Positions 7,726 to 26,740 of a stretch of 26,740 nt of DNA are shown here, in pieces (position 1 is the stretch's first letter; each line of letters starts with the position of its first letter). The DNA comes from a virus. The DNA is taken from positions 1-26,740 of IMG/VR virus record IMGVR_UViG_3300013094_000226; one strand, written 5' to 3'. Under the pieces are notes generated by a model, which worked only from the letters and a program-made list of their open reading frames with translations, had not been told where the DNA came from and made no database searches. Made by a program: the position numbers and the translations under genes.

Positions 7726-9639
7726 TTATGAACTAATTAGGCCGTAAGTTTTCCATGTGCCAGGGTTTCCAGTCGCTGTACAAACATAACCATAATATCC
7801 CCCAGCAGTAGGAGATTTATTTATAAAATTAGACCCTTGCAACCAATAACCTGTAGTTGCTGCGCCAAATGAACTAGGAATGTTATAACCTAATAAACTA
7901 CCTGTAATTGTTCCAGTAAACACATACAAAGTAGCTTCTGTAGATGCATCAGAAATTGGAGATTGCAAAATCACATTTGATATAGTTGAGGAAAAGTTAT
8001 AACTTGCTGTTGTAAAACTTTGTGTCACATTTCCATTAATAACACCATTTGTCATGTAATTAATATTCATGCCATATCTTGATGATGTGCCATTAATTTT
8101 ATTGAAATTAACATTAATTAAATTGGTATTTAAAATTTGCATACCATCTGTACCATTAGCATTAATTACATTGTTTGAAATGCTTGCATTTTGTACTAAA
8201 TAAGTTGAATTGTATCCACTTACATAAATTCCAACTGCGGCGGCCTCAATATAATTATTCGTAATTTCTAAGTCGTTTAAATATGTTGCAACACTTGAAT
8301 AAACACTAATACCATTGGAAATAACTCCAGATGAACCAGTTTCATCTCCATATCTATAAATTCTATTATCTGATATTTTTGCTCTGTAGATACTTTGTCC
8401 ACTAGTGTTTGTGCTTACACCAATGCCATTGCCATTTGGAGAACTAGACATAGCATAACAATCATTATCAATAATTGTTAAATTGCTACAGCCTAATTCA
8501 ACAACAATTCCATCTCTACCATAAGCAATATTTCCACTAATTTTTACTTCAATAGTATTGGCACTACCAGAACCACCAACATCAATTGCTGGTGTACCAG
8601 GTAAAAATACAATGTTGTTTTCAATCAATGTATTTCTTACAGATGGGAATGTAAGTTCACCACCTAAATAAACATTGTTATTAGTAAAAATAAGATTGTT
8701 AAGCAAATAACCAGTAAATGATGTATTTGCATTTTGTGAAATAAAACAATTTTCTACAATAGTTACATTAGTTTGGACAAAACTGGTTGTTCCTTGTATA
8801 TATAAAGGACAATAATCAAAGTTTAAAAAATTACAATTATAAACTTTACTACCTTGTGTCAAATGTAAACCAGCTTGATATTGTTTATAGGCATAAGTAA
8901 AAGAACCATTCCACCATGAAGCAGTACCAGTTTGATTTGTTGTTTTTGGTTTAAATGTTAAACCTTCTACTTCAACAGGGATTGAATTTGTAGAAAAATC
9001 TATACAGAATGTATTTGTACTTAAACTAGGAAAATCAACTAATATAGATGCTTTACCATATATTTTGGTCAAGGCTGTATTTGTAGGTGTAATTAAAGAT
9101 GTTATTCTATATTGAGAAGTGTTATCTCCAAAATATACAGTTCCAACCCCACTATTTAAAGCATTTCTAATTGCTACTGTGTCATCTGTTGTTCCATCAC
9201 CTACAGCACCAAAATCTTTAACATGAATTTTTTGTTGTAATTTAGCTTGTATGGTTTCAGAAACTGCACCAGTTTGATTAGCAGTATAAGTGATTAAAGT
9301 AGAACCATTAGATGCAATTAAAGAAGCATATATAGATGAAAAATCATTTATTGCAGGAATATTATCCCATGAACCAATTTGAGAACCAGCAGAATTTTGC
9401 AAAACAAACTTATATGTTGAGCCTGTTATCAACCAAATCTCATTAGGAACACGACCACTTGCATCTAACACAATTGGATTTGAATTAGCAACAGTTCCTA
9501 AATAACTTGTATATGTTGCAATTTGAGTGGTTGTTCCTGCAGAATAGGTATATAAAAAACCACCAGCCAAAGGTATACCATTATTATCAAAAAATTGTGC
9601 TCCAGCACCAGCAAAAGAAGAAAAATTAACTGTTGTCAT
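7726..9639 (-). CDS. Tailspike with P22-type head-binding domain and pectate-lyase-like beta-helix
   Basis: A 637-residue protein. Residues 1-100 resemble head-binding domains of podovirus tailspikes ([20 protein letters not shown], then the [11 protein letters not shown] motif at 56-65). A short linker is followed at 139-160 by the pectate-lyase superfamily motif [18 protein letters not shown]. About 400 residues rich in Asn, Ile, Ser and Val then form evident beta-helix rungs. Such proteins bind and often cut surface polysaccharide such as O-antigen or capsule; no catalytic residues can be assigned here. The DNA is markedly AT-rich, as is usual for exchangeable receptor-binding genes. It lies directly before the gp4-like gene. 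Confidence 0.85.
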
Positions 9640-14649: not shown

Positions 14650-16632
14650 TTAGGCTGCAATACGGCAAGAGAGTTCAGGGTAGAGCGGAGCCCAACCGTA
14701 AAGCACGTCTAGACGAGTCGGTATTGAATCGTTGTTAATGGTGTATTGGCGAACCACACGCATAGACAATCCGATCTCTTTATCGGAAGCACGTCCAGCA
14801 AAATGTACACCTTCAGGAAGCTCTAAATCGGCTCATTTCTGTTACTTTCACCTTTCGGCTACTGACTACTTTCGTAGCGGAGAGAACTCTTCGGATCTCT
14901 CTCTACCCCTTCAATTCAGTTATAGGGTAGTTCAGACTATCGCATCAGCTTTCGCTGCCATCCCACTTAGTCGTTCACGCTGCACGATCTTTCAATCTGC
15001 TTGCGCCTTGTTAACCTCTTCAGGCACTCCAAGTCAATCAGGGACGGTTTTCTACTTACGCTGCTTGTAAGTAGCCGCAGTCGTTTACGGCAAGAGTAAA
15101 GGCATTCCTGTGCATCATGATGTTCTGTGGTGACAAAGTACCAGTGTTGTTGAATGGTGTTACAACAGCAGTAGTAGATGTAGAACCGATCACGATTGTG
15201 TTCTGGAACTGACCACCGATGATGATTGCAGGGCTAACTGTAATGTTTGTTGCGCCTGTACCTACTGTAGTAGTAGATTGGACAACAAAGTTACGGAGCT
15301 TGCCTGAACCATAAGCCTGACGGTTTTGGGGGTTGGTTGCGTATAGACCAGCAATCTGGAAAGTGTCACCAGCGTTCAATGTAGAAGCTGAAGATGCTTT
15401 GATCTGGATTGTGGAATACTGTGCCCAACCACTTGTCAGATAACCAACTTGTGCAGTCGTATCAGCAGACAAAGTGTTGCCAGAGTAAGAACCAAAAGTT
15501 TGTGCAACCACGTTTTGGTCGAGCTTCCAGTTAACACCAGCAGAGTCACGGCCCATCAGACCTTTACGGTACTGTTCGCCAATCGCTTCTTGTGGAACAA
15601 ACAAACCTTTTAAGCTATCAACGATAGTTGCAGATGTAAAGGGCTCGATGATACAAGAACGACGACCATCTCTAGGTGCGCCTTCAGAGTCAAGATAAGC
15701 ACCAGCTGTTAAGAAAGTGATTAATCCTGTTGGAGGTGTACCAGCAGTTCCAACGATGTTGGCAGTCTGCAGAGCAGCAACGTTCAAACCGTCACGGTCA
15801 ATCTTGTTAGCGATTGCTGCAACAGCGGGTTTCAACACACGGTCAGAGAACATATCAAGGCTTAAAGCTAAGTCTTGAGTAGTGAACTGTGTCATTCTGT
15901 TACTTCGGTTTTACCCTACTGACCCTTTCGGGCGGTTCGACCTCTTCGGATCAAACTCATCGGCTTCGTTTCAAGTTATACCGATGTTCAGACTATCGCA
16001 TCCCTCTCGGGTTCCTCCACTTAGTCGTTCAGGCTGCACAAACTTTCGTTTTGCTTGCCCCCTGTCGTCTGCTTCCAGACTTCCAAGTCAATCAGGAGAA
16101 ATTTTGCCAACTTGCTTAGTGCAAGTATGTGGACATACGTTTATCCACATGGAATTGAGTGCTCAAAGTTACTGGGACTGAAGTCTCGTTAAAGTCTTCA
16201 ACGTTCAAAGCTGGGCCAGTTGTACCGATAAAACGGCCAGGTCTACGGACGTTTACGGTGTTACCGATCTTAGCTCCGACAACAGCGAACTGGTCGTCAT
16301 AGTTACGGTCTACTTCTGAAGTGAAAGTTACATTCTGTTACTTTAGTGACCTATTTCTAGGCGGGAAAACCTCTTCGGATTCTCCTCTGCCCCTTCTTGG
16401 GTTATAGGGCAGTTCAGACTATCGCATCATCCTATTTCTAGGAGCTTTCTCACTTAGTCGTTCAGGGTGTCTTTCGACTTCCCCCTTGTTGTCCACTTCT
16501 GGAGTTCCAAGTCAATCAGAGAAAGTTATTCAATATGCGTTACCGCATAAGGGAGCAAACTGTTTACTCGTTTTCGAGAACCATCAGGGCTTCATTAGTA
16601 ATTTTACTAATCGTTAGTAAAATATTACTCAT
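14650..16632 (-). CDS. Major coat protein, P22 coat family, split into four exons by three group I introns
   Basis: Exons, in transcription order: 16632-16566 (67 nt), 16330-16143 (188), 15892-15087 (806), 14833-14650 (184). They sum to 1245 nt, an uninterrupted frame of 414 residues plus TAA. Exon 1 gives MSNILLTISKITNEALMVLE-NE; Leu23 is split (T|TA); exon 2 runs to Asp85; exon 3 runs from Thr86 to residue 353; Val354 is split (GT|A); exon 4 ends with the tract LDVLYGWAPLYPELSCRIAA. The joined text follows the P22-type coat pattern across every junction (NELTFTSEVDRNYDDQF, FHVDTQFTTQDLALS, FTLAVADLELPEG). A strong AAAGGA precedes the ATG at 16632. Unspliced, the frame stops at once after exon 1 (GAG TAA). 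The scaffold gene ends 23 nt upstream. The exon calls are inferred from protein pattern and intron structure; mRNA was not seen. Confidence 0.93.
14834..15086 (-). ncRNA. Group I intron C (third) in coat gene, 253 nt, no ORF
   Basis: The 5' exon ends in GCCGT and the intron ends in ...CAGAAATG, leaving Val354 split as GT|A. P1 pairs exon GCCGU with intron GCGGC with U.G at the splice site. P2 is a perfect 8-bp hairpin (CUACUUAC/GUAAGUAG). P3 pairs CCGUCCC with GGGAUGG. P4 is CUUG/CAAG; P5 is CCU-GAAG-AGG. P7 pairs GACUA with UAGUC. P8 is CAGC-GAAA-GCUG. P9 pairs CUACCC with GGGUAG. The core landmarks TGAACGACTAAG and GATGCGATAGTCTGAAC are the group I R and S elements. No P7.1/P7.2 insertion is visible, which argues against subgroup IA. 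Confidence 0.95.
15893..16142 (-). ncRNA. Group I intron B (second) in coat gene, 250 nt, no ORF
   Basis: The intron lies exactly between codons 85 and 86 (GTG GAT | ACA CAG). P1 is 8 bp, exon AUGUGGAU with intron GUCCACAU, U.G at the splice site. P2 is ACUUGC/GCAAGU. P3 pairs UUUCUCC with GGAGGAA (one G.U). P5 is GUCUG-GAA-CAGAC in place of the different P5 of the other two introns. P6 includes AAAC-GAAA-GUUU. P7 is GACUA/UAGUC; P8 is CCC-GAGA-GGG; P9 is AUCGG/CCGAU. It ends in ...CAGAATG with the terminal G. The ATG at 15895 that seems to start the 279-residue frame is actually the last bases of this intron. Confidence 0.95.
16331..16565 (-). ncRNA. Group I intron A (first) in coat gene, 235 nt, no ORF
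   Basis: It splits the Leu23 codon after GAG T. P1 pairs exon GAGU plus intron AAA with UUUGCUC, U.G at the splice site. P2 is UAUGCG-GUAA-CGCAUA. P3 pairs CUUUCUC (16525-16519) with GAGAAAG (16451-16445). P4 is CUUG/CAAG; P5 is UCCA-GAAG-UGGA; P6 carries GUC-GAAA-GAC. P7 pairs GACUA (16459-16455) with UAGUC (16421-16417). P8 is CCUA-GAAA-UAGG (16442-16431). P9 pairs CUGCCC with GGGCAG. The terminal G is at 16331. It is the shortest of the three and shares the AAAC start and the AGTAACAGAATG end. Confidence 0.95.
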
Positions 16633-19704: not shown

Positions 19705-20196
19705 TTAAGAATGACGTGCAAAGTCCATATGTAGACGTTCACGGGCTAATTTTACGACTTTTTCAGCTTCTGCGATAGTATTAAATAATCCAATTGTATG
19801 TGTTTTTTTATTAGACCAAATTCTAGCTTTCCAACGTCCTGATTGTGAATCCCAACTTACGCCCTTAACGCCAGATGTGTTGTTTTTATTGATTTTGGCA
19901 TTTTTTCTATTTAAAGACGTATTTGCTGGTCTTAAATTTTCAATTCTATTATTGGATGGATTTCCGTCAATATGATCTATTATTTCAGGCAATTCGCCAT
20001 TAAACATTAAATATATCAATCTGTGAGCTTTGTATAGCTTTGAGTTTATTTTTACTGCTCTATATCCAAGTTTATTTACCGAACCAGCCAACATGCCCAC
20101 AGAATGTCCTCTAGTTGGTATTTTCCAATAAATCTCACCTTCTCTGTATTCAAATAATTCATTCAAATACTCTTTAGTTATAATTTGTTCAGCCAT
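19705..20196 (-). CDS. Free-standing HNH homing-type endonuclease with AP2-like DNA-binding domain
   Basis: A 163-residue protein from the ATG at 20196, which has AAAGGG six bases upstream; the frame is open to 20274 but that version would overlap the terminase stop and include a terminator hairpin. Residues 54-93 hold the HNH core: AHR with H58, then IIDHIDGN with D74, H75 and D77, and NNRIENLR with N87. Residues about 106-150 (NTSGVKGVSWDSQSGRWKAR) are an AP2-like DNA-binding module. Genes of this type are mobile and insert between phage genes. It separates terminase from portal, which are normally adjacent, and lies about 3 kb upstream of the three introns, which have no endonuclease of their own. 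Confidence 0.88.
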   Translation of the reverse strand: MAEQIITKEYLNELFEYREGEIYWKIPTRGHSVGMLAGSVNKLGYRAVKINSKLYKAHRLIYLMFNGELPEIIDHIDGNPSNNRIENLRPANTSLNRKNAKINKNNTSGVKGVSWDSQSGRWKARIWSNKKTHTIGLFNTIAEAEKVVKLARERLHMDFARHS

Positions 20197-20222
20197 AAGA
20201 TACCCTTTTATCGGTTGGTTAG

Positions 20223-20255
20223 AAAAGCCAGTTAGCTCGTTACTAATTGGCTTTT
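20223..20255 (-). terminator. Strong hairpin terminator after large terminase gene
   Basis: A 13-position stem at 20223-20235 and 20243-20255 (AAAAGCCA..TTAG with CTAA..TGGCTTTT) has one imperfect position and a 7-nt loop. On the minus strand it ends in TTTTCT; on the plus strand in TTTTTG, so it could act both ways. It lies seven bases past the terminase stop and 26 bases before the HNH start. It would separate terminase transcription from HNH and portal unless read-through occurs. Confidence 0.75.
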
Positions 20256-20261
20256 TGCATT

Positions 20262-21551
20262 TTACGACATCCAAGACAAAGGCTGACCATAATTTTGAAC
20301 ATTTGGCCTAGATTTTCTAGCTTTTGTTTCCTGAACACCAAGAGCAATATATCTAAAGGCATCACTACCATGAGAATATTGGTCGTGAAGTGGATTTTTG
20401 CTGAATTGCTTAGTATCTGGATCTACTTCATATCTGTAATGTCTAAGGCATTGAAGCCCGTCATAACAGTTATCCCGATCAAAAAAGCAATTTCTAAATA
20501 TAGTTCTGGCAGCGTTAATGCTATCAGCTATAGGAGTTCTTGGGATGATTTTGGTCTTGTATCCAGCTGCTCGTACTATTTCATCAATTGATCTTCCATT
20601 TGATCCTATTGTTTTGTTGACAGAATCGTGAGGAAGCCACAGAGTATCGTAGACATATCCAAACGTCTGCATAGTCGCTAGGTAATGGCTGATTGTTTGC
20701 TGGTTGTCCTCAATATACCGAATTAGCCTGATTTCCTGGGCTATGAACTGGACAAACCAAATCGAGGTCGAATCAGCCCAGCCAAGGTCAAATACCGCAT
20801 GGACTGGCTTGGTAGGATCGTAGCGAACCTTGGTGATTCTTTCCTCTAACTCCGCAGTCTGCATCTCTCTGGCAAACACCGCTCCGTCCACAGTCTGACG
20901 GCATAAACCTTCCCAGACCGTGTTGTACGCTTCTGGATCTCTGGATTGAAGTGTTCTGCGCTCATGGTCTAGAACTTCGGGAAACCAAGGATTGTCCGAC
21001 CAGTTGACCTTTTGGGTGATGCAATTCTCAGCTGGATGCAGAATGAATCTCTGATAAGTAGCGTCAGATTCCAACTCAGGATTCATTGTGATCCAGATCT
21101 CGGAGTCTTTTGCCCTTATCGTAGGGATCAAAATATCCCATGACCGAGCGGATACGGCCTGAGCTTCCTCTACCCAAACAATGGTGCACCCTTCAAACGA
21201 TTTAATGTTATGAGGATTGTTTTTTAGGCCTACAAAAGAGAATTCCGTGCCGTTTGCGCCCCTGATAGAGTTTTGGGTAATCTCATAGAACCCAATTAAT
21301 CCCATCTCAACGATCTGGTCGGACAAAAGTTTATGTACGGATTGGCTAATAGAGTTCTGATATTCTCGAGCGCAAAGAATCCGGTGGACTTGTTTAGCAC
21401 CGAGAATAAGCAAAGCCCTAGCTACCGACCAAGACTTCGCAGATCCTCTCCCTCCGTATATACATTTATAACGGCTTTTTTCGAATAGGCATTGCAATTT
21501 AACCGGAAACTCGGCTTTCTTAATTGCTTGGTCTATCTCATTCTGTTGCAT
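20262..21551 (-). CDS. terL: Terminase large subunit
   Basis: A 429-residue packaging motor. The ATPase domain has Walker A GGRGSAKS at 33-40, Walker B TIVWVEEA at 123-130 with catalytic Glu at 128/129, and a coupling-type motif around ITMNPEL at 154-160. The nuclease domain has FDLGWAD at 254-260 (D255), LPHDS around D309, and HGSDAFRY with D397, the three acidic positions expected of an RNase H-type headful nuclease. It starts inside the end of the small-terminase gene (14-nt overlap). A hairpin terminator follows. The sequence is closer to PBSX/P22-class terminases than to T4 or T7. Confidence 0.93.
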   Translation of the reverse strand: MQQNEIDQAIKKAEFPVKLQCLFEKSRYKCIYGGRGSAKSWSVARALLILGAKQVHRILCAREYQNSISQSVHKLLSDQIVEMGLIGFYEITQNSIRGANGTEFSFVGLKNNPHNIKSFEGCTIVWVEEAQAVSARSWDILIPTIRAKDSEIWITMNPELESDATYQRFILHPAENCITQKVNWSDNPWFPEVLDHERRTLQSRDPEAYNTVWEGLCRQTVDGAVFAREMQTAELEERITKVRYDPTKPVHAVFDLGWADSTSIWFVQFIAQEIRLIRYIEDNQQTISHYLATMQTFGYVYDTLWLPHDSVNKTIGSNGRSIDEIVRAAGYKTKIIPRTPIADSINAARTIFRNCFFDRDNCYDGLQCLRHYRYEVDPDTKQFSKNPLHDQYSHGSDAFRYIALGVQETKARKSRPNVQNYGQPLSWMS

Positions 21552-22175: not shown

Positions 22176-22315
22176 TTCTTTTTAGCTTTCTTTTCTGCTT
22201 CACGTTTAACATTCAGGGCAATCGCAATTGCCTGTTTCTGTGGTTTACCAGCCTTGATTTCTTTTTCTATGTTTTTACCAACATTCTTTTCTAGTTTTGA
22301 CTTAATTAGTGGCAT
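22172..22315 (-). CDS. Small Lys-rich phage protein of the 'AGKPQKQAIAIAL' family (47 residues)
   Basis: A 47-residue frame (MPLIKSKLEKNVGKNIEKEI, then KAGKPQKQAIAIAL and a Lys-rich end). The AGKPxKQAxAIAL motif is a recurrent signature of tiny proteins in many phages, grouped with DUF6496-like sequences; no function is established to my knowledge. The start lies 14 nt inside the end of the GroES-like gene and the stop overlaps the next ATG. Confidence 0.75.
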   Translation of the reverse strand: MPLIKSKLEKNVGKNIEKEIKAGKPQKQAIAIALNVKREAEKKAKKK

Positions 22316-22592
22316 CTTCTGGATCCTCTATAAAACAAACATCTTGCCAAGAAAGGACTAGGAATTTCTCGTCCCCGTCCTTAAAATTGTGATATTTCAA
22401 ATATTCGTCTTTGTAGTCTTTGGCTAAAGTCCCAAACCAGACCTTATCCCCGACCTTTAAACCCTCCTCAGCAGCTTCGTCCCCAACTGCGGTTACATAA
22501 CCACAAGTATCTACCTCTGCGGTCTGAATGTAAAGGACTGATTGAATTCTAGGTACGGGTTTGACTATTATTTTGTCTTTTATGGGTTTCAT
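22302..22592 (-). CDS. GroES-like co-chaperonin (cpn10 fold)
   Basis: A 96-residue protein with the cpn10 pattern: MKPIKDKIIVKPVPR start, a short mobile-loop region (IQSVLYIQT), then CGYVTAVGDEAAEEGLKVGD and KVWFGTLA, which corresponds to the 'G-V-AVG-G-VKVGD-V-F' core of GroES. T4 gp31 is a known phage counterpart that adapts host GroEL to fold the coat protein. No GroEL-like gene is in the window, so a host chaperonin would be the partner. The start overlaps the preceding stop (ATGA). Confidence 0.75.
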   Translation of the reverse strand: MKPIKDKIIVKPVPRIQSVLYIQTAEVDTCGYVTAVGDEAAEEGLKVGDKVWFGTLAKDYKDEYLKYHNFKDGDEKFLVLSWQDVCFIEDPEDATN

Positions 22593-22978: not shown

Positions 22979-23344
22979 TTACATTTTATCTTGAACGTGA
23001 CCTACTCTAACGTGAGAATATACTTCACGCTCTTTAGAACCGTCATTCATCTCACCAGTACGTCCGTCATTACGACCCATGTGGGAGGCTTCACGAGCAC
23101 CGATACCATCCATCTTACCCATGCCAACACCACCAGCGATAGGCATTTTACGTTCACCAGACATATCGGAAGCTGTTGCGCCAAATGGGATTTTCTCTCC
23201 AGATACGCCTTTAGTTCCCTTAATGCTGTTAGGGCCAGTTTGTTTCATAGCACTTGTTGGGCCTTCTTTCTTCTCGCCTGTACGGTCTGAAGATTTAGCA
23301 CCTTTTGGCAATTTTTCGCCTGATTCTGCACGAGTTGAATACAT
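22979..23344 (-). CDS. Gly/Lys-rich, probably disordered protein with internal repeats
   Basis: A 121-residue protein with no hydrophobic core. A motif occurs at least twice: SGEKLPKGAKSSDRTGEKK near 8-26 and SGEKIPFGATASDMSGERKM near 48-67. The rest is rich in Gly, Met, Arg and Ser. It looks intrinsically disordered and basic, compatible with nucleic-acid or capsid binding. It starts 9 nt after an AAGGA site and behind a good sigma70-type promoter. I know no function for it. Confidence 0.65.
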   Translation of the reverse strand: MYSTRAESGEKLPKGAKSSDRTGEKKEGPTSAMKQTGPNSIKGTKGVSGEKIPFGATASDMSGERKMPIAGGVGMGKMDGIGAREASHMGRNDGRTGEMNDGSKEREVYSHVRVGHVQDKM

Positions 23345-23520: not shown

Positions 23521-23795
23521 AAGTACGCTGCCCGTTTAGGTACGCATTGAATGTCTATGATTATGTCTGACATCATTCCCGACACAATCCGCTTAGACAT
23601 GACTGGCACAGCCCTTAGACCATCCTGTTCGCATTGGATTGTGGCCTGAATGACCTCAGTTCTGCTCATTTGCTGAACTTGTGGCTCTACCTTGACAGGC
23701 ACAACTGGGGGAGCTGTGTAAGTCTGGACGGGCGGTGTTTCTAGCCGTTGCCCAGCGCACCCAGCTAGGAACGCCATTAAAAGTAAGTATCTCAT
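23517..23795 (-). CDS. Small lipoprotein, possible outer-membrane spanin
   Basis: A 92-residue protein with a lipoprotein signal: MR, then LLLMAF and the lipobox LAGC with Cys13. A Pro-rich stretch follows (PPVQTYTAPPVVPVKVEP), then a mixed domain with two further cysteines. Proline-rich lipoproteins are typical of Rz1-type o-spanins, but an i-spanin gene is not evident and the protein is longer than most, so this is only a possibility. AAGGAGG before the ATG predicts strong translation. It also signals a Gram-negative host. Confidence 0.65.
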   Translation of the reverse strand: MRYLLLMAFLAGCAGQRLETPPVQTYTAPPVVPVKVEPQVQQMSRTEVIQATIQCEQDGLRAVPVMSKRIVSGMMSDIIIDIQCVPKRAAYF

Positions 23796-24085
23796 TCTGG
23801 TAACCTCCTTAAAGCCTTTAGCTTCTGAGTTGTTCCGTCAAATAAAAACTCTACGTTGTGATTTCCTATCTTGGCTAATTCCAAATAATCTCCCTGAACG
23901 CCAAGTTTGAACTTTACGCAAGCGCTGACTGCAAAATCTTTCTTTTCTTCGGGTTTTAGCCTGTATTCAGTATCATCATCCCAACTTGGGCTATCAGAAT
24001 CCAACCATTCGTTGTATACGTTTTTACATTGAATTTCAGCCCCATCTGCCCATTGTTTAATCAATTCTGCGTGTTTATGTTTCAT
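23792..24085 (-). CDS. Conserved small phage protein of unknown function (97 residues)
   Basis: It reads MKHKHAELIKQWADGAEIQC, then WLDSDSPSWDDDTEYRLKPE. The 'HAELIKQWADGAEIQ ... W-DDTEYRLKP' pattern recurs in many temperate and lytic phages of Proteobacteria; the function is unknown to me. Both ends overlap neighbours by 4 nt (ATGA), placing it firmly in the same translated unit. Confidence 0.75.
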   Translation of the reverse strand: MKHKHAELIKQWADGAEIQCKNVYNEWLDSDSPSWDDDTEYRLKPEEKKDFAVSACVKFKLGVQGDYLELAKIGNHNVEFLFDGTTQKLKALRRLPE

Positions 24086-24537
24086 TTGTTGCGCTCCTTA
24101 AGAGTTGCTTCGGCTACCCCGGTTGCTGCCAAGATTATTTTCCGCAGATCATCTTCAGTAAGACCTACCCATTCTTTAGTTTGTGGTTTGGTGTAGAGAG
24201 GCAAACAGTCATCCCACGCTTTTGTTGCGTAATAAATATTTTCTCCATTTTCTTTTCTAAACCACGCCACAGGTTCACCCTGCTCTGGAGGCTCCCAAAA
24301 CTCACATTCACATACATATCTATCTTCACTATGACTAGCATTACGAACAAACCCATGAGGGGCATCTGGGTGTGTTTTGCAATTAAAATTATTTTCTTTT
24401 TGATTTAGTGCTTCTTCTAGGGCTTTGATTGCGTCACGTGCTTTTTTTGAGGCATCAAGAGCATCTTGCATGGTTTCAGTTCTACTCATTAAACATTTCA
24501 ACGCCTCAAGCGCCAGTTCCATTACTTCTTTAGTCAT
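24082..24537 (-). CDS. Mosaic accessory protein, paralogue 3 of 3 (151 residues)
   Basis: The N-terminal module, about 45 residues (MTKEVMELALEALKCLMSRT, then ETMQDALDASKKARDAIKAL), is almost identical in DNA to that of the gene at 24717-25121. A middle region has the EPVAWFRKENGE and LYTKPQTKEWVGL motifs common in phage accessory proteins; TKPQTKEWVGL is shared at DNA level with the gene at 25118-25762. Two Cys and two His at about 50-80 may bind metal. The role is unknown; the gene looks assembled from pieces of its two neighbours. Confidence 0.75.
   Translation of the reverse strand: MTKEVMELALEALKCLMSRTETMQDALDASKKARDAIKALEEALNQKENNFNCKTHPDAPHGFVRNASHSEDRYVCECEFWEPPEQGEPVAWFRKENGENIYYATKAWDDCLPLYTKPQTKEWVGLTEDDLRKIILAATGVAEATLKERNK
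24404..24537. repeat. 134-bp direct repeat, copy 1
   Basis: Pairs with 24988-25121 at a constant offset of 584. I count 6 mismatches by hand. It encodes the N-terminal module of two paralogous genes, including the start codon, which indicates recent duplication. Confidence 0.93.
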
Positions 24538-24540
24538 GTC

Positions 24541-24720
24541 TTACTCCTTATTAATGCCGTGTGCTGATTCATAAGCAGTGACACCGCCCCTACAATCAAA
24601 ACAAAGTCCATCGTACTCACTACCTTTACGAGTGCCACATTGGCATATAACTCGACCATCTTTTCCACGTTTCCATAAATGCTTTGGAAGTGGTTTTTTA
24701 GGTTGCTTTCTTTTTGTCAT
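24541..24720 (-). CDS. Zinc-ribbon-like small protein (59 residues)
   Basis: A 59-residue frame (MTKRKQPKKPLPKHLWKRGK) with Cys pairs CQC and CFDC about 15 residues apart, a probable zinc ribbon, and a basic N-terminal arm. The ATG overlaps the previous stop (ATGA). The TAA is followed by the next ATG with GGAG of its own codons acting as ribosome site. It sits between two copies of the duplicated module, so it probably was carried in with the duplication or separates the copies. DNA or RNA binding is plausible. Confidence 0.75.
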   Translation of the reverse strand: MTKRKQPKKPLPKHLWKRGKDGRVICQCGTRKGSEYDGLCFDCRGGVTAYESAHGINKE

Positions 24721-25121
24721 GTTGTTTCTCTTTTCAATTCTCGAATTGCATCAGTAAGCCCGTTTTGTGCCCGTTCAAAACCTTCGTGGTCATCATTAAC
24801 GCAAAAATTCCAGCCATCTTTTAAACCTCTGAAATAGCCAAGATCGTGATTTGCAGCTTCCGTCAACGGCTTGCGCTTTGGTGGTGGGTGGGCGTAAAGA
24901 GGTATGCTATAAAACCCAAATTTATCTTCCCTAACATATAACTCAATGTCATCAGTTTTCCACGCCACTGGCTCGTCCTGATATTGCTTTAGTGCTTCTT
25001 CTAGGGCTTTGATTGCGTTACGTGCTTTTTTTGAGGCATCAAGAGCATCTTGCATGGTTTCAGTTCTACTCATTAAACATTTCAACGCATCAAGCGCTTG
25101 TTTCATTACTTCTTTATTCAT
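24717..25121 (-). CDS. Mosaic accessory protein, paralogue 2 of 3 (134 residues)
   Basis: Residues 1-45 are the module shared with 24082-24537 (MNKEVMKQALDALKCLMSRT onwards). The rest differs: DEPVAWKTDDIELYVREDKF, a Pro-rich PLYAHPPPKRKPLT motif, then GYFRGLKDGWNFCVNDDHEG. The DEPVAW...PLY.HPPP...LT pattern is widespread in phage accessory proteins of unknown function. It overlaps its neighbours by ATGA at both ends. Confidence 0.75.
   Translation of the reverse strand: MNKEVMKQALDALKCLMSRTETMQDALDASKKARNAIKALEEALKQYQDEPVAWKTDDIELYVREDKFGFYSIPLYAHPPPKRKPLTEAANHDLGYFRGLKDGWNFCVNDDHEGFERAQNGLTDAIRELKRETT
24988..25121. repeat. 134-bp direct repeat, copy 2
   Basis: Pairs with 24404-24537; both copies begin in codons for the Ala/Leu-rich helix end and finish at the ATG. 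A 37-bp identical repeat of a different module also links 24163-24199 and 25217-25253. Confidence 0.93.
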
Positions 25122-25762
25122 GTATTGCGCTCCTTTAATATTTGTTCAGCCCATCTTGCTCCATAAATAAAATCAAAATTGCTTGTTTTTGGGTCTTTCA
25201 TATCCTCATCAATTAAACCTACCCATTCTTTAGTTTGTGGTTTGGTGTAGAGATTGTGTTTTCCAACTGGCAACAATTCCTTTCCGTAAAATTCATACGG
25301 GCCCTGATGTGTGCATTTAACATCCACCCACGCCGCGGGCTTATCCTGCTCTTGCTTGGCAATGATGCGTTCTAATAATTCAGCCGCTTCAACAGATACT
25401 GGGTCGCTGTTTTCATAGAGAGCTTCAATTACTTTTTGAACGTAATTAAATGAATCATCTTGCTCTTGCTTCAACTTCTCAAGTTCATCCTCTCGCAAAT
25501 AACATCCACGTTCAAAATGCTCGGCTTGCTCATTTGCTTTTTTCAAAGCAACTGTTAAGCGTTCAATCTCATTTTGCTCTTGCTTAGGCATCTCCATTAA
25601 GCGGTGGTCAGATGTAGTTATTAGCTCACCTTGCTCTTGCTTTAGTGCCTCACGCAATCCATACCTAGCATTTTTAGCAATTGTTGTAGCTGAATCAATG
25701 TCACGAGCCATCATGATTGCTTCAAACGCCTCAAGTGCTTGTTGCATTACTTCTTTAGTCAT
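25118..25762 (-). CDS. Mosaic accessory protein, paralogue 1 of 3 (214 residues)
   Basis: The N-terminus (MTKEVMQQALEAFEAIMMAR) is a diverged form of the module in the other two paralogues. Residues about 35-140 contain repeated KQEQ spacers and a coiled-coil-like acidic/Glu-rich region. The C-terminal 40 residues share the TKPQTKEWVGL motif and the LKERN ending with the 151-residue gene. The KQEQ units look like short in-frame expansions. Function is unknown. Confidence 0.75.
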   Translation of the reverse strand: MTKEVMQQALEAFEAIMMARDIDSATTIAKNARYGLREALKQEQGELITTSDHRLMEMPKQEQNEIERLTVALKKANEQAEHFERGCYLREDELEKLKQEQDDSFNYVQKVIEALYENSDPVSVEAAELLERIIAKQEQDKPAAWVDVKCTHQGPYEFYGKELLPVGKHNLYTKPQTKEWVGLIDEDMKDPKTSNFDFIYGARWAEQILKERNT

Positions 25763-26085
25763 ATAGCCCTCATCACTCGTTGGTTACGACCTGAGAAACC
25801 TGGACGTTTCTCTCCTGTGTCCACAATCAATCCTTTCTTCATCAAAGGACGATAGCGAGGAGTAACTGAACTTGCCCGGTACTGCGCCAAAGCAGACTCT
25901 ACGTCTTGGCTGATACACCCGTTAGGGAAACTCTTAATCACGTCTAGAACGAGTTGTTCCATCTTGTTGACATCTACTGTCTTTGCTGCTTCCTTTGACG
26001 TTTGTGGGTCTGTTTTACGGGCAAACGCCATCAAATCGTCAGGGAAGTAGGCTTTTAACGTCTCATATAAATCAAATTTGTTCAT
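25759..26085 (-). CDS. Winged-helix-like DNA-binding protein (SKEAA family)
   Basis: A 108-residue protein. The segment ARKTDPQTSKEAAKTVDVNK is a marker of a widespread phage and plasmid family. It is followed by a winged-helix pattern (MEQLVLDVIKSFPNGCISQD, then VTPRYRPLMKKGLIVDTGEK) and a basic end (RPGFSGRNQRVMRAI). Such proteins are annotated as helix-turn-helix or DNA-binding; targets are unknown. It lies next to replication/recombination-type genes, so a role in DNA metabolism or control of the early operon fits. Confidence 0.72.
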   Translation of the reverse strand: MNKFDLYETLKAYFPDDLMAFARKTDPQTSKEAAKTVDVNKMEQLVLDVIKSFPNGCISQDVESALAQYRASSVTPRYRPLMKKGLIVDTGEKRPGFSGRNQRVMRAI

Positions 26086-26110: not shown

Positions 26111-26350
26111 TTAAAATCCAATATCGTCTTCTTCTTTCTTAAACTTCTTACCGTCTTTTGGTAATGGATCGTTGATATAACACCAGCCATCCCAACCACC
26201 CTCTTTTAGCGGTAAGTTGTCAATCTTGAGCATTTCCCCGTTTTTAGTCTCAATAATCATTCCGACCTTGTGATAACGGTTCTTCTCCTCACCTTTGTCG
26301 TTTGTGTACTTACCCACGATGGTGGTGATTTCTTTTAATACTTTAGCCAT
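26111..26350 (-). CDS. Small hypothetical protein after exonuclease (79 residues)
   Basis: It reads MAKVLKEITTIVGKYTNDKG, then GMIIETKNGEMLKIDNLPLK and an acidic tail EEDDIGF. Short beta-rich body plus acidic C-terminal tail is the plan of some single-stranded-DNA-binding proteins, and the position after a recombination exonuclease fits a partner role, but no motif settles it. The start overlaps the exonuclease stop by 8 nt. Confidence 0.6.
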   Translation of the reverse strand: MAKVLKEITTIVGKYTNDKGEEKNRYHKVGMIIETKNGEMLKIDNLPLKEGGWDGWCYINDPLPKDGKKFKKEEDDIGF

Positions 26351-26740
26351 TAATTTTCTCCAATTGTTTAATCTTTGCGTCTACTTCATCTAAAAATCTA
26401 ATTACTTCCTGCTCTAGCTCCGCAGCGTATTTAGGATCGTATTCCACCCGTTTAATAAATAGCTGAAGATTCTCTGGCAGTCTTGGGTCGTAAGACACAA
26501 AATCTGTCCAATGTCTGCCAGTACAGCACATCTGCCAAGTCATCTGGGTTAGGTACTTTGTCGGGACTTTGCCTGATAACAATGTCTCGATATGAGTTGC
26601 TGTGTTTGGGCACTTAATCTCAATCATGCCTGAATCCCCCACTAATCCGTCAGGAGAAGCGCCAGTCATCGCTATGGATGGATGGTCAACAAACCCTACT
26701 TGATCGACTGTAAGACCCGTCTTGACCTCGTAGGCAGCCC
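26343..26740 (-). CDS. YqaJ / lambda-type recombination exonuclease, 5' part outside window
   Basis: The frame is open to the edge; the ATG at 26669 is internal, since AYEVKTGLTVDQVGFVDHPS precedes it in frame. Active-site motifs of the family are present: GASPDGLVG with the metal-binding Asp, and MIEIKCP with the E-x-K pair. The region YLTQMTWQMCCTGRHWTDFV, then SYDPRLPENLQL, matches the lambda exonuclease C-terminal half. The enzyme degrades the 5' strand of linear dsDNA to make 3' ends for annealing. About 132 residues are visible; roughly the first third to half is missing. Confidence 0.85.
   Translation of the reverse strand, partial: AAYEVKTGLTVDQVGFVDHPSIAMTGASPDGLVGDSGMIEIKCPNTATHIETLLSGKVPTKYLTQMTWQMCCTGRHWTDFVSYDPRLPENLQLFIKRVEYDPKYAAELEQEVIRFLDEVDAKIKQLEKING

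Follow-up and report, generated by a model that had tools for sequence, protein, structure and literature searches.

How does a phage come to carry, side by side, several small genes that share pieces of DNA? The question is raised by the window analysed here, an IMG/VR virus record of 26,740 nucleotides (nt) within which all positions are numbered. Four of its genes, encoding proteins of 214, 134, 59 and 151 amino acids (aa) and named here by those lengths, lie together on the minus strand (Table 1). An original prediction, made from the letters of the window, took the 214-, 134- and 151-aa proteins to be mix-and-match accessory proteins made from duplicated DNA modules. This is strongly supported by comparison with related loci and contigs (each labelled L plus a number): the modules recur in many other combinations in phages, and module swapping appears clear from the sequences.

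Repeats and modules in the accessory genes

Both repeats on which the prediction relied are real. The N-terminal repeat measures 156 nt at 91% identity, spans the first 46 codons of the 151- and 134-aa genes, extends beyond the ATG into the upstream ribosome-binding site and stops at the start of a linker (ALNQ/ALKQ). Over residues 1-46 its two copies differ by six non-synonymous changes and one synonymous change, and six amino-acid changes are too few to judge selection. The second repeat, 37 base pairs (bp) long and exact, sits within a 55-nt, 89% repeat common to the 151- and 214-aa genes. All exact repeats of at least 24 nt in the window fall within the head repeat or the joint repeat, and the longest shared words, of 37 and 59 nt, compare with a mean of 9.6 and a maximum of 15 in 1000 trials with codon-shuffled genes.

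The reading placed on these repeats needs revision. The 37-bp segment is not a C-terminal module, as had been proposed, as it encodes LYTKPQTKEWVGL, a joint that separates the middle module from the tail, and the tails beyond it are unlike in the 151- and 214-aa genes. Nor is the 151-aa gene a chimera of its two neighbours, having only its head in common with the 134-aa gene and only the joint in common with the 214-aa gene. It is made up of the head (residues 1-46), a CKTHPDAPHGF...CECEFWEP module (about 49-84), a middle module, EPVAWFRKENGENIYYATKAWDDCLPLY (about 87-115), the joint and the tail. Neither the 134- nor the 214-aa gene has the CKTHPDAPHGF...CECEFWEP, FRKENGENIYY or tail modules, and CKTHPDAPHGFVRNASHSEDRYVCECEFWEP and EPVAWFRKENGENIYYATKAWDDCLPLY, missing from both neighbours, are present in other phages (L004-L010; L016-L018). 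By this comparison the 151-aa protein is a chimera drawn from a shared pool, its inner modules and tail recurring in other phages.

The neighbouring genes are built in the same manner. The 134-aa gene has a middle module, EPVAWKTDDIELYVREDKFGFYSIPLY, common to L036/L045, where its EPVAWKTDDIELYVREDKFGFY is also found, and a tail of its own. The 214-aa gene, judged by its segments, is a multi-module chimera too, with a head (MTKEVMQQALEAF...), KQEQ-linked segments (EIERLTVALKKANEQAEHFER, present in L036/L045, and DDSFNYVQKVIEALYENSDPVSVEAAELLERI, present in L033/L034), a KPAAW middle module, the joint and a tail (IDEDMKDPKTSNFDFIYGARWAEQILKERNT) that is nearly identical in L035 and L037 and more distant in L038-L044. 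Its segments stand in other contexts in L033, L035, L036, L037, L040, L041 and L045, and an additional KQEQ linker, at about 25344-25361, accompanies those listed in Table 1. Because they recur in other phages, most pieces of the 214-, 134- and 151-aa genes derive from a pool wider than this genome. The zinc-ribbon-like 59-aa gene does lie between the copies of the head repeat, as had been noted, but it is no mere bystander, since its terminus (ESAHGINKE*, with an embedded AAGGAG) is, as DNA, nearly identical to the AHGIKE* ending of tails in L045 and other relatives.

Free combination of modules in relatives

At least 120 virus contig stretches contain the pattern KEWVGL[T/I/M]DEE, which turned up in only two contigs among 84,980 bacterial and archaeal genomes, both from beta-proteobacterial metagenome-assembled genomes, one of which (L258) carries what we read as phage-like replication genes. 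A set of 178 non-redundant module proteins drawn from the loci was divided at the joints by regular expression, and the resulting pieces formed 140 head, 53 middle and 103 tail clusters, these numbers being approximate. Among clusters with at least two members, every tail cluster (29/29) was found on different heads, middle modules on different heads in 14/14 cases and on different tails in 16/18, and 16 of the 18 head clusters on different tails. Tails occur on many unrelated heads, short cysteine-rich heads included. The typical cassette is a small gene composed of a head, an EPV-type middle module and a WVGLTDEE...LKEKN (or ...AHGIKE) tail.

Whole-protein searches of cultured phages gave no match for the 151-aa protein or for an AHGI-tailed relative, a composite WVGLTDEE-type query gave four distant records, and a DNA search of the region in phages matched YqaJ only. 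The relatives are nearly all metagenome contigs, and joints that form repeats of 35-60 nt are places where an assembler could splice unrelated contigs. That the combinations are such artefacts is very improbable given the identical architectures recovered from independent metagenomes (L005/L006/L007; L011/L012/L013/L015; L016/L017/L018; L009/L010), the in-frame open reading frames (ORFs) under purifying selection, and the presence of a relative in the complete genome of Phage DSL-LC05.

Single events between near relatives

On the minus strand the window reads YqaJ exonuclease, a 79-aa gene, a 108-aa gene, the 214-, 134-, 59- and 151-aa genes and a 97-aa gene. The slot between the 108- and 97-aa genes is a cassette array, probably in an early operon. 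Its content does not keep one fixed order in all relatives, and varies among near ones. In the backbone relatives L179, L183, L186, L188 and L190 the 97-aa gene is the same but the module genes close to it differ; L260, 94% identical to the window over the stretch that begins at 25750 and runs to the end of the record, has one unrelated 93-aa module gene in place of the window's four; and in L261 and L262 the slot is empty, the 108-aa gene joining the 97-aa gene directly via ATGA. L263 and L265 are near-identical here, L265 having one extra module gene with AAGGAAAA...ATGA on either side.

Exchange is seen within genes as well. Between L131 and L058 (97% over several kb) the middle module of one gene is exchanged between joints, the replacement lying exactly between GAGCCTGT and TACACCAAACCACAAACTAAAGAATGGG; identity ends at GAGCCTGT(t/a)GC(a/g)TGG and returns at TACACCAAACCACAAACTAAAGAATGGGTAGG, and a neighbouring gene of L131 holds a module that hardly differs from the one in L058. 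Two genes of L045 correspond to a single in-frame fusion, at KQEQGE/IERL, in L036 (98-99% over 8 kb), and L162 and L057 have common blocks of 212-266 nt at 93-98% in differing order.

Ordinary tandem duplication and divergence within this one phage lineage, the modules always staying together, would account for the length and identity of the head repeat in the window. It is scarcely credible as an account of the slot, where near relatives have different genes or none, and it is already refuted by the other partners with which the same pieces are combined in other phages.

Joints conserved as DNA

Three recurring joints can be recognised in the sequences: an internal KQEQxEPVAW, an internal LYTxPQTKEWVGLTDE, and the gene-to-gene junction. 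Pieces are exchanged in frame at both internal joints, and the junction is where gain or loss of whole genes occurs. Measured against each contig's own codon usage, the KQE codons AAG CAA GAG are kept in 18/19, 19/19 and 19/19 instances (AAG expected at 0.45); among the LYT codons CTC TAC ACC, CTC is kept in 37/55 (expected 0.11) and ACC in 48/55 (expected 0.25); and in EWVGL the frequency of GAA is 0.93 (expected 0.53), with GGG in 85/110 (0.17) and CTG in 83/113 (0.15). Conserved YqaJ motifs of these phages, which served as control where terminase offered too few sequences, show a weaker excess, their commonest codon reaching 0.29-0.73 vs 0.12-0.57 expected. The modules flanking the joints being unrelated, the silent sites of the joints would have become random had point mutation acted alone. 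Furthermore, where genes of differing composition share high-identity blocks, 55% of the block ends lie in joints vs 28% at random placement, an excess due in part to short blocks that may be joints themselves.

Such conservation could also arise if the internal joints held an internal translation start, an RNA structure or a regulator site, with shuffling being random and illegitimate and the joints kept by selection. This account fits the evident part that the gene-end element plays in translation, and also the L036/L045 fusion, which shows only a few matching bases at its second site. We nevertheless consider it unlikely, as both endpoints of the L131/L058 swap coincide with joint homology and block ends are enriched in joints.

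Gene ends that carry the next start signal

The common C-terminus LKEKNT* is encoded by AAGGAGAARAAYACATGA, which contains both a Shine-Dalgarno sequence and a start codon that shares nucleotides with the stop codon, and the alternative tail type AHGIKE* likewise terminates in AAGGAG. This hexamer is present within the last 33 nt of 105 of the 161 module genes, vs 47 of 1107 control ORFs. A 4-nt overlap with ATG was found in 89/161 module genes and in 445/1107 other ORFs, so overlap alone is common elsewhere. Most cassettes bring the translation signal of the next gene; translation of the operon would persist when cassettes are inserted, lost or permuted. Dual coding probably explains part of the conserved C-terminus, and the terminal residues of the tails (T, HG, GY, HVVSGA) would follow from the position of the overlapping start. 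In L131 (10188-10364) and L058 (3738-3911) the next gene starts out of frame inside the upstream tail, NHVVSGA* overlapping MWFLG....

A model for cassette exchange

We propose that the slot is a cassette array whose members are exchanged by short-homology recombination, remain coupled through their ends and yield adaptor-like products, an explanation that, taken whole, we regard as likely. The short conserved joints would act as homology for the exonuclease YqaJ, paired with ERF or Sak as the annealing protein, the genes for both lying just upstream, and exchange would take place between cassettes that are neighbours in one genome as well as between phages that infect a cell together. The dual-coded 3′ end would leave each new arrangement translationally coupled. 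Less surely, the products (helical head, small beta module, helical tail) may be early proteins that act like adaptors and bind targets from the host, defence systems or competitors, in which case shuffling would alter the binding partners and purifying selection would maintain each module. Homology-driven exchange by phage enzymes is, in our judgement, rather probable. An annealing protein precedes YqaJ in relatives, namely ERF (PF04404; L179/L262) or Sak (PF06378; L188/L260), and recombinases of the Red-beta/Erf/RecT type exchange short, diverged homology, with a minimum of ~30 bp for Red-beta and relaxed fidelity for Erf (PMC3945230). A stronger form, in which the joints and dual-coded start/stop elements are selected at the DNA level as standard recombination and translation connectors of a purpose-built combinatorial system, and in which phages would draw their early effector proteins from a common pool under continual re-sorting, is one we regard as a tentative and rather doubtful extension.

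Several points weigh against the model. Recombination was not witnessed in action, our comparisons being of sequences only, and the synonymous conservation of the two internal joints could have another cause. Homologues of ERF, Sak or YqaJ lie within 4 kb of module genes in only 27/151 loci, a count made with probes from two phages on short contigs, so the exchange may instead be due to host RecA, other enzymes or illegitimate joining. The functional role is argued from position and architecture only, and the sampling of module pairs, the confidence of the structural models and the outcome of the structure search, given below, lie on the same side of the balance.

Selection, structure and function of the products

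The original prediction saw in the shuffling a selection for diversity. As positive selection on point changes this was not supported, as 70 pairs of shared modules gave an aggregate ratio of non-synonymous to synonymous change (pN/pS) of ~0.25 and an omega of ~0.19 with 0 pairs above 1 and no sign of positive selection, these pairs not being independent and having been selected for similar proteins, a choice that lowers the ratio. In near-identical phages picked by genome (L036/L045, L131/L058) changes are mainly silent. Diversity arises through shuffling and gene gain or loss, and the modules, from their substitution patterns, look like functional proteins under purifying selection. This bears on the view that the cassettes are selfish or neutral recombination-prone repeats, whose joints and coupling elements make insertion harmless while the proteins are of no use. 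The near relatives L261 and L262 have no cassette in the slot, so none is essential, which suits that view; the low pN/pS even in near-identical phages, together with the maintained frames, argues for selected protein function and makes the view quite improbable.

AlphaFold2 models, run with alignments of relatives and of low to moderate confidence, were obtained for two of the proteins. In the 151-aa protein (predicted local distance difference test score, pLDDT, 71.4; predicted template modelling score, pTM, 0.32) helices at 3-18 and 23-49 are followed by a loop, strands at 91-96, 99-103 and 112-114, and helices at 128-136 and 141-149. The 134-aa protein (pLDDT 68.8, pTM 0.38) has a helical hairpin at 3-47, strands at 53-55 and 73-75, and helices at 88-98 and 112-133. 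The two models share a plan of helical hairpin head, short beta element (the EPV...PLY module) and helical tail; the cysteine-rich module is not resolved. A Foldseek comparison of the 151-aa model with viral proteins returned nothing at E<=1e-3, the best being uncharacterised phage proteins, and a sequence search of the PDB found no relative.

No family in Pfam, NCBIfam, PADLOC or the functionally named PHROGs covers the module proteins, and no module protein matched a family that would point to anti-defence or takeover activity. Their PHROG matches are the unknown-function phrog_60 (best 2e-7) and phrog_20840 (6e-12, one relative). Matches to DLH, DUF2911, MkoB and capP were weak, came from single proteins each and were rejected as family assignments. 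That the products are anti-defence or host-takeover binding proteins, judged by position and architecture, is possible, though it would be going too far to expect it.

Relation to known systems

Like the lambda Ea22/exo-xis proteins (PMC10834534), the products are small early accessory proteins encoded downstream of exo, with a helical region and a separate C-terminal domain, and are mosaic; unlike Ea22, there are several paralogous cassettes per genome with common joints, and gene ends encode the next gene's start signal. The main alternative on function, which leaves the shuffling untouched, is that these are lysis-lysogeny modulators of the same kind. The place just downstream of the exonuclease/annealing genes is the same as in the lambda gene order, and Ea22 genes are mosaic too, having a coiled-coil region and C-terminal domains that have been swapped (PMC10834534). 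The Ea22 family is otherwise characterised by a tetramer with a coiled coil and a dimeric C-terminal domain, by a pro-lysogenic effect and by a place between exo and the integration genes in the early left operon. We think it an improbable role, given the lack of sequence relation to Ea22 (hhalign probability 0.4%, E 0.17), the different PHROGs (Ea22 hits phrog_250/368 and others, the module proteins none of these), and the want of any identified integrase or repressor in the window fragment, relatives not having been searched for them. By the tests made, Ea22 is analogous in position, not homologous.

The exchange proposed in our model also resembles described forms of mosaicism. Domain mosaicism as surveyed by Smug et al. 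2023 (PMC10684548), who are agnostic on mechanism, concerns mainly tail, lysin and replication proteins. As there, otherwise non-homologous proteins share a fragment here, and the process is ongoing between highly similar genomes (L131/L058, L036/L045, L263/L265); unlike the survey, our case involves uncharacterised accessory genes, defined DNA joints and whole-gene cassettes. The mosaicism linked to Rad52-like recombinases (De Paepe et al. 2014, PMC3945230) is similar in that the slot adjoins exonuclease and single-strand annealing protein genes, ERF or Sak with YqaJ in relatives, and differs in that the homologies here lie inside genes, keep the reading frame and recur as joints all along an array. 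Protein variants at one locus are also the product of shufflons and diversity-generating retroelements. The region has two short palindromes only and no inverted joint pairs that might serve as shufflon sites, a recombinase gene not having been searched for; variation is by module exchange, unlike the adenine-directed mutation of diversity-generating retroelements; and no dedicated recombinase or reverse transcriptase was noticed among the window ORFs, no systematic search having been made.

Mosaic phage proteins (PMC10684548) and mosaic Ea22 (PMC10834534) are already known. We did not find the family, or standard joints and dual-coded connectors in phage accessory genes, described in the literature, most subscription papers lying outside the search, and the module swapping of these accessory genes is apparently undescribed. 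The array behaves like a parts kit with standard connectors. It could be used to measure, in a natural system, how phage annealing proteins recombine DNA within genes, and it supplies a large set of natural chimeras for finding the binding partners of modules, possibly host or defence proteins, and modular shuffling suggests why such genes escape family databases.

Other features of the window

Table 1. Positions of the module genes, repeats, coupling elements and slot borders within the window.
Feature	Position	Strand	Basis or remark
97-aa MKHKHAEL gene, conserved; fixed downstream edge of variable slot	23792..24085	-	comparison with relatives
151-aa module gene	24082..24537	-	ORF; modules compared with relatives
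Coupling element, end of 151-aa gene	24082..24099	-	sequence; AAGGAG 24094-24099 and ATGA 24082-24085 overlapping next gene
37-bp exact joint encoding LYTKPQTKEWVGL, in 151-aa gene	24163..24199	-	exact-repeat search
Head repeat, copy in 151-aa gene (156 nt, 91%)	24400..24555	-	repeat search
59-aa CxC...CxxC (zinc-ribbon-like) gene	24541..24720	-	ORF; ending compared with L036/L045/L048
134-aa module gene	24717..25121	-	ORF; head common to 151-aa gene
Head repeat, copy in 134-aa gene (156 nt, 91%)	24984..25139	-	repeat search
214-aa module gene	25118..25762	-	ORF; segments recur elsewhere in other phages
Coupling element, end of 214-aa gene	25118..25135	-	sequence; AAGGAG 25130-25135 and ATGA 25118-25121 shared with 134-aa gene
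37-bp exact joint encoding LYTKPQTKEWVGL, in 214-aa gene	25217..25253	-	exact-repeat search
KQEQ linker DNA AAGCAAGAGCAA, repeated in 214-aa gene	25455..25651	-	copies near 25455-25480, 25569-25594, 25626-25651
108-aa phrog_1123 gene, conserved; fixed upstream edge of variable slot	25759..26085	-	comparison with relatives
YqaJ exonuclease (cut by record end)	26343..26738	-	Pfam PF09588, E 4e-16

To judge from its P22-type portal and coat and its terminase_3 large subunit, the window belongs to a P22-like phage. Further minus-strand genes include a 715-aa protein with a VanY-like peptidase domain (269-2416), a beta-helix tail-spike-like protein (7726-9639), an HNH and AP2 domain protein of the homing-endonuclease gene type between terminase and portal (19705-20274) and a phage-encoded GroES-like co-chaperonin (Cpn10) barely over the Pfam cut-off (22302-22592). 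The P22-like coat gene (15056-16632, minus strand) is apparently in three parts, MSNILLTISKITNEALMVLENE, a stretch ending ...STQFHVDKRMST, and TQFTTQDLALSL..., parted by two noncoding stretches of ~235 nt each that are clearly similar to one another. The first of these matches an Rfam group I intron model at 27.3 bits (E 9e-5), under the 50-bit cut-off, and the arrangement probably represents twin group I introns within one capsid gene. Finally, a 121-aa protein (22979-23344, minus strand) has internal GEKxPKGAxxSDxxGERK repeats, and repeat-sized replacements in it separate near-identical relatives (L261 vs L262, L263 vs L265), which would make its gene, on this comparison, a second locus with intragenic shuffling.

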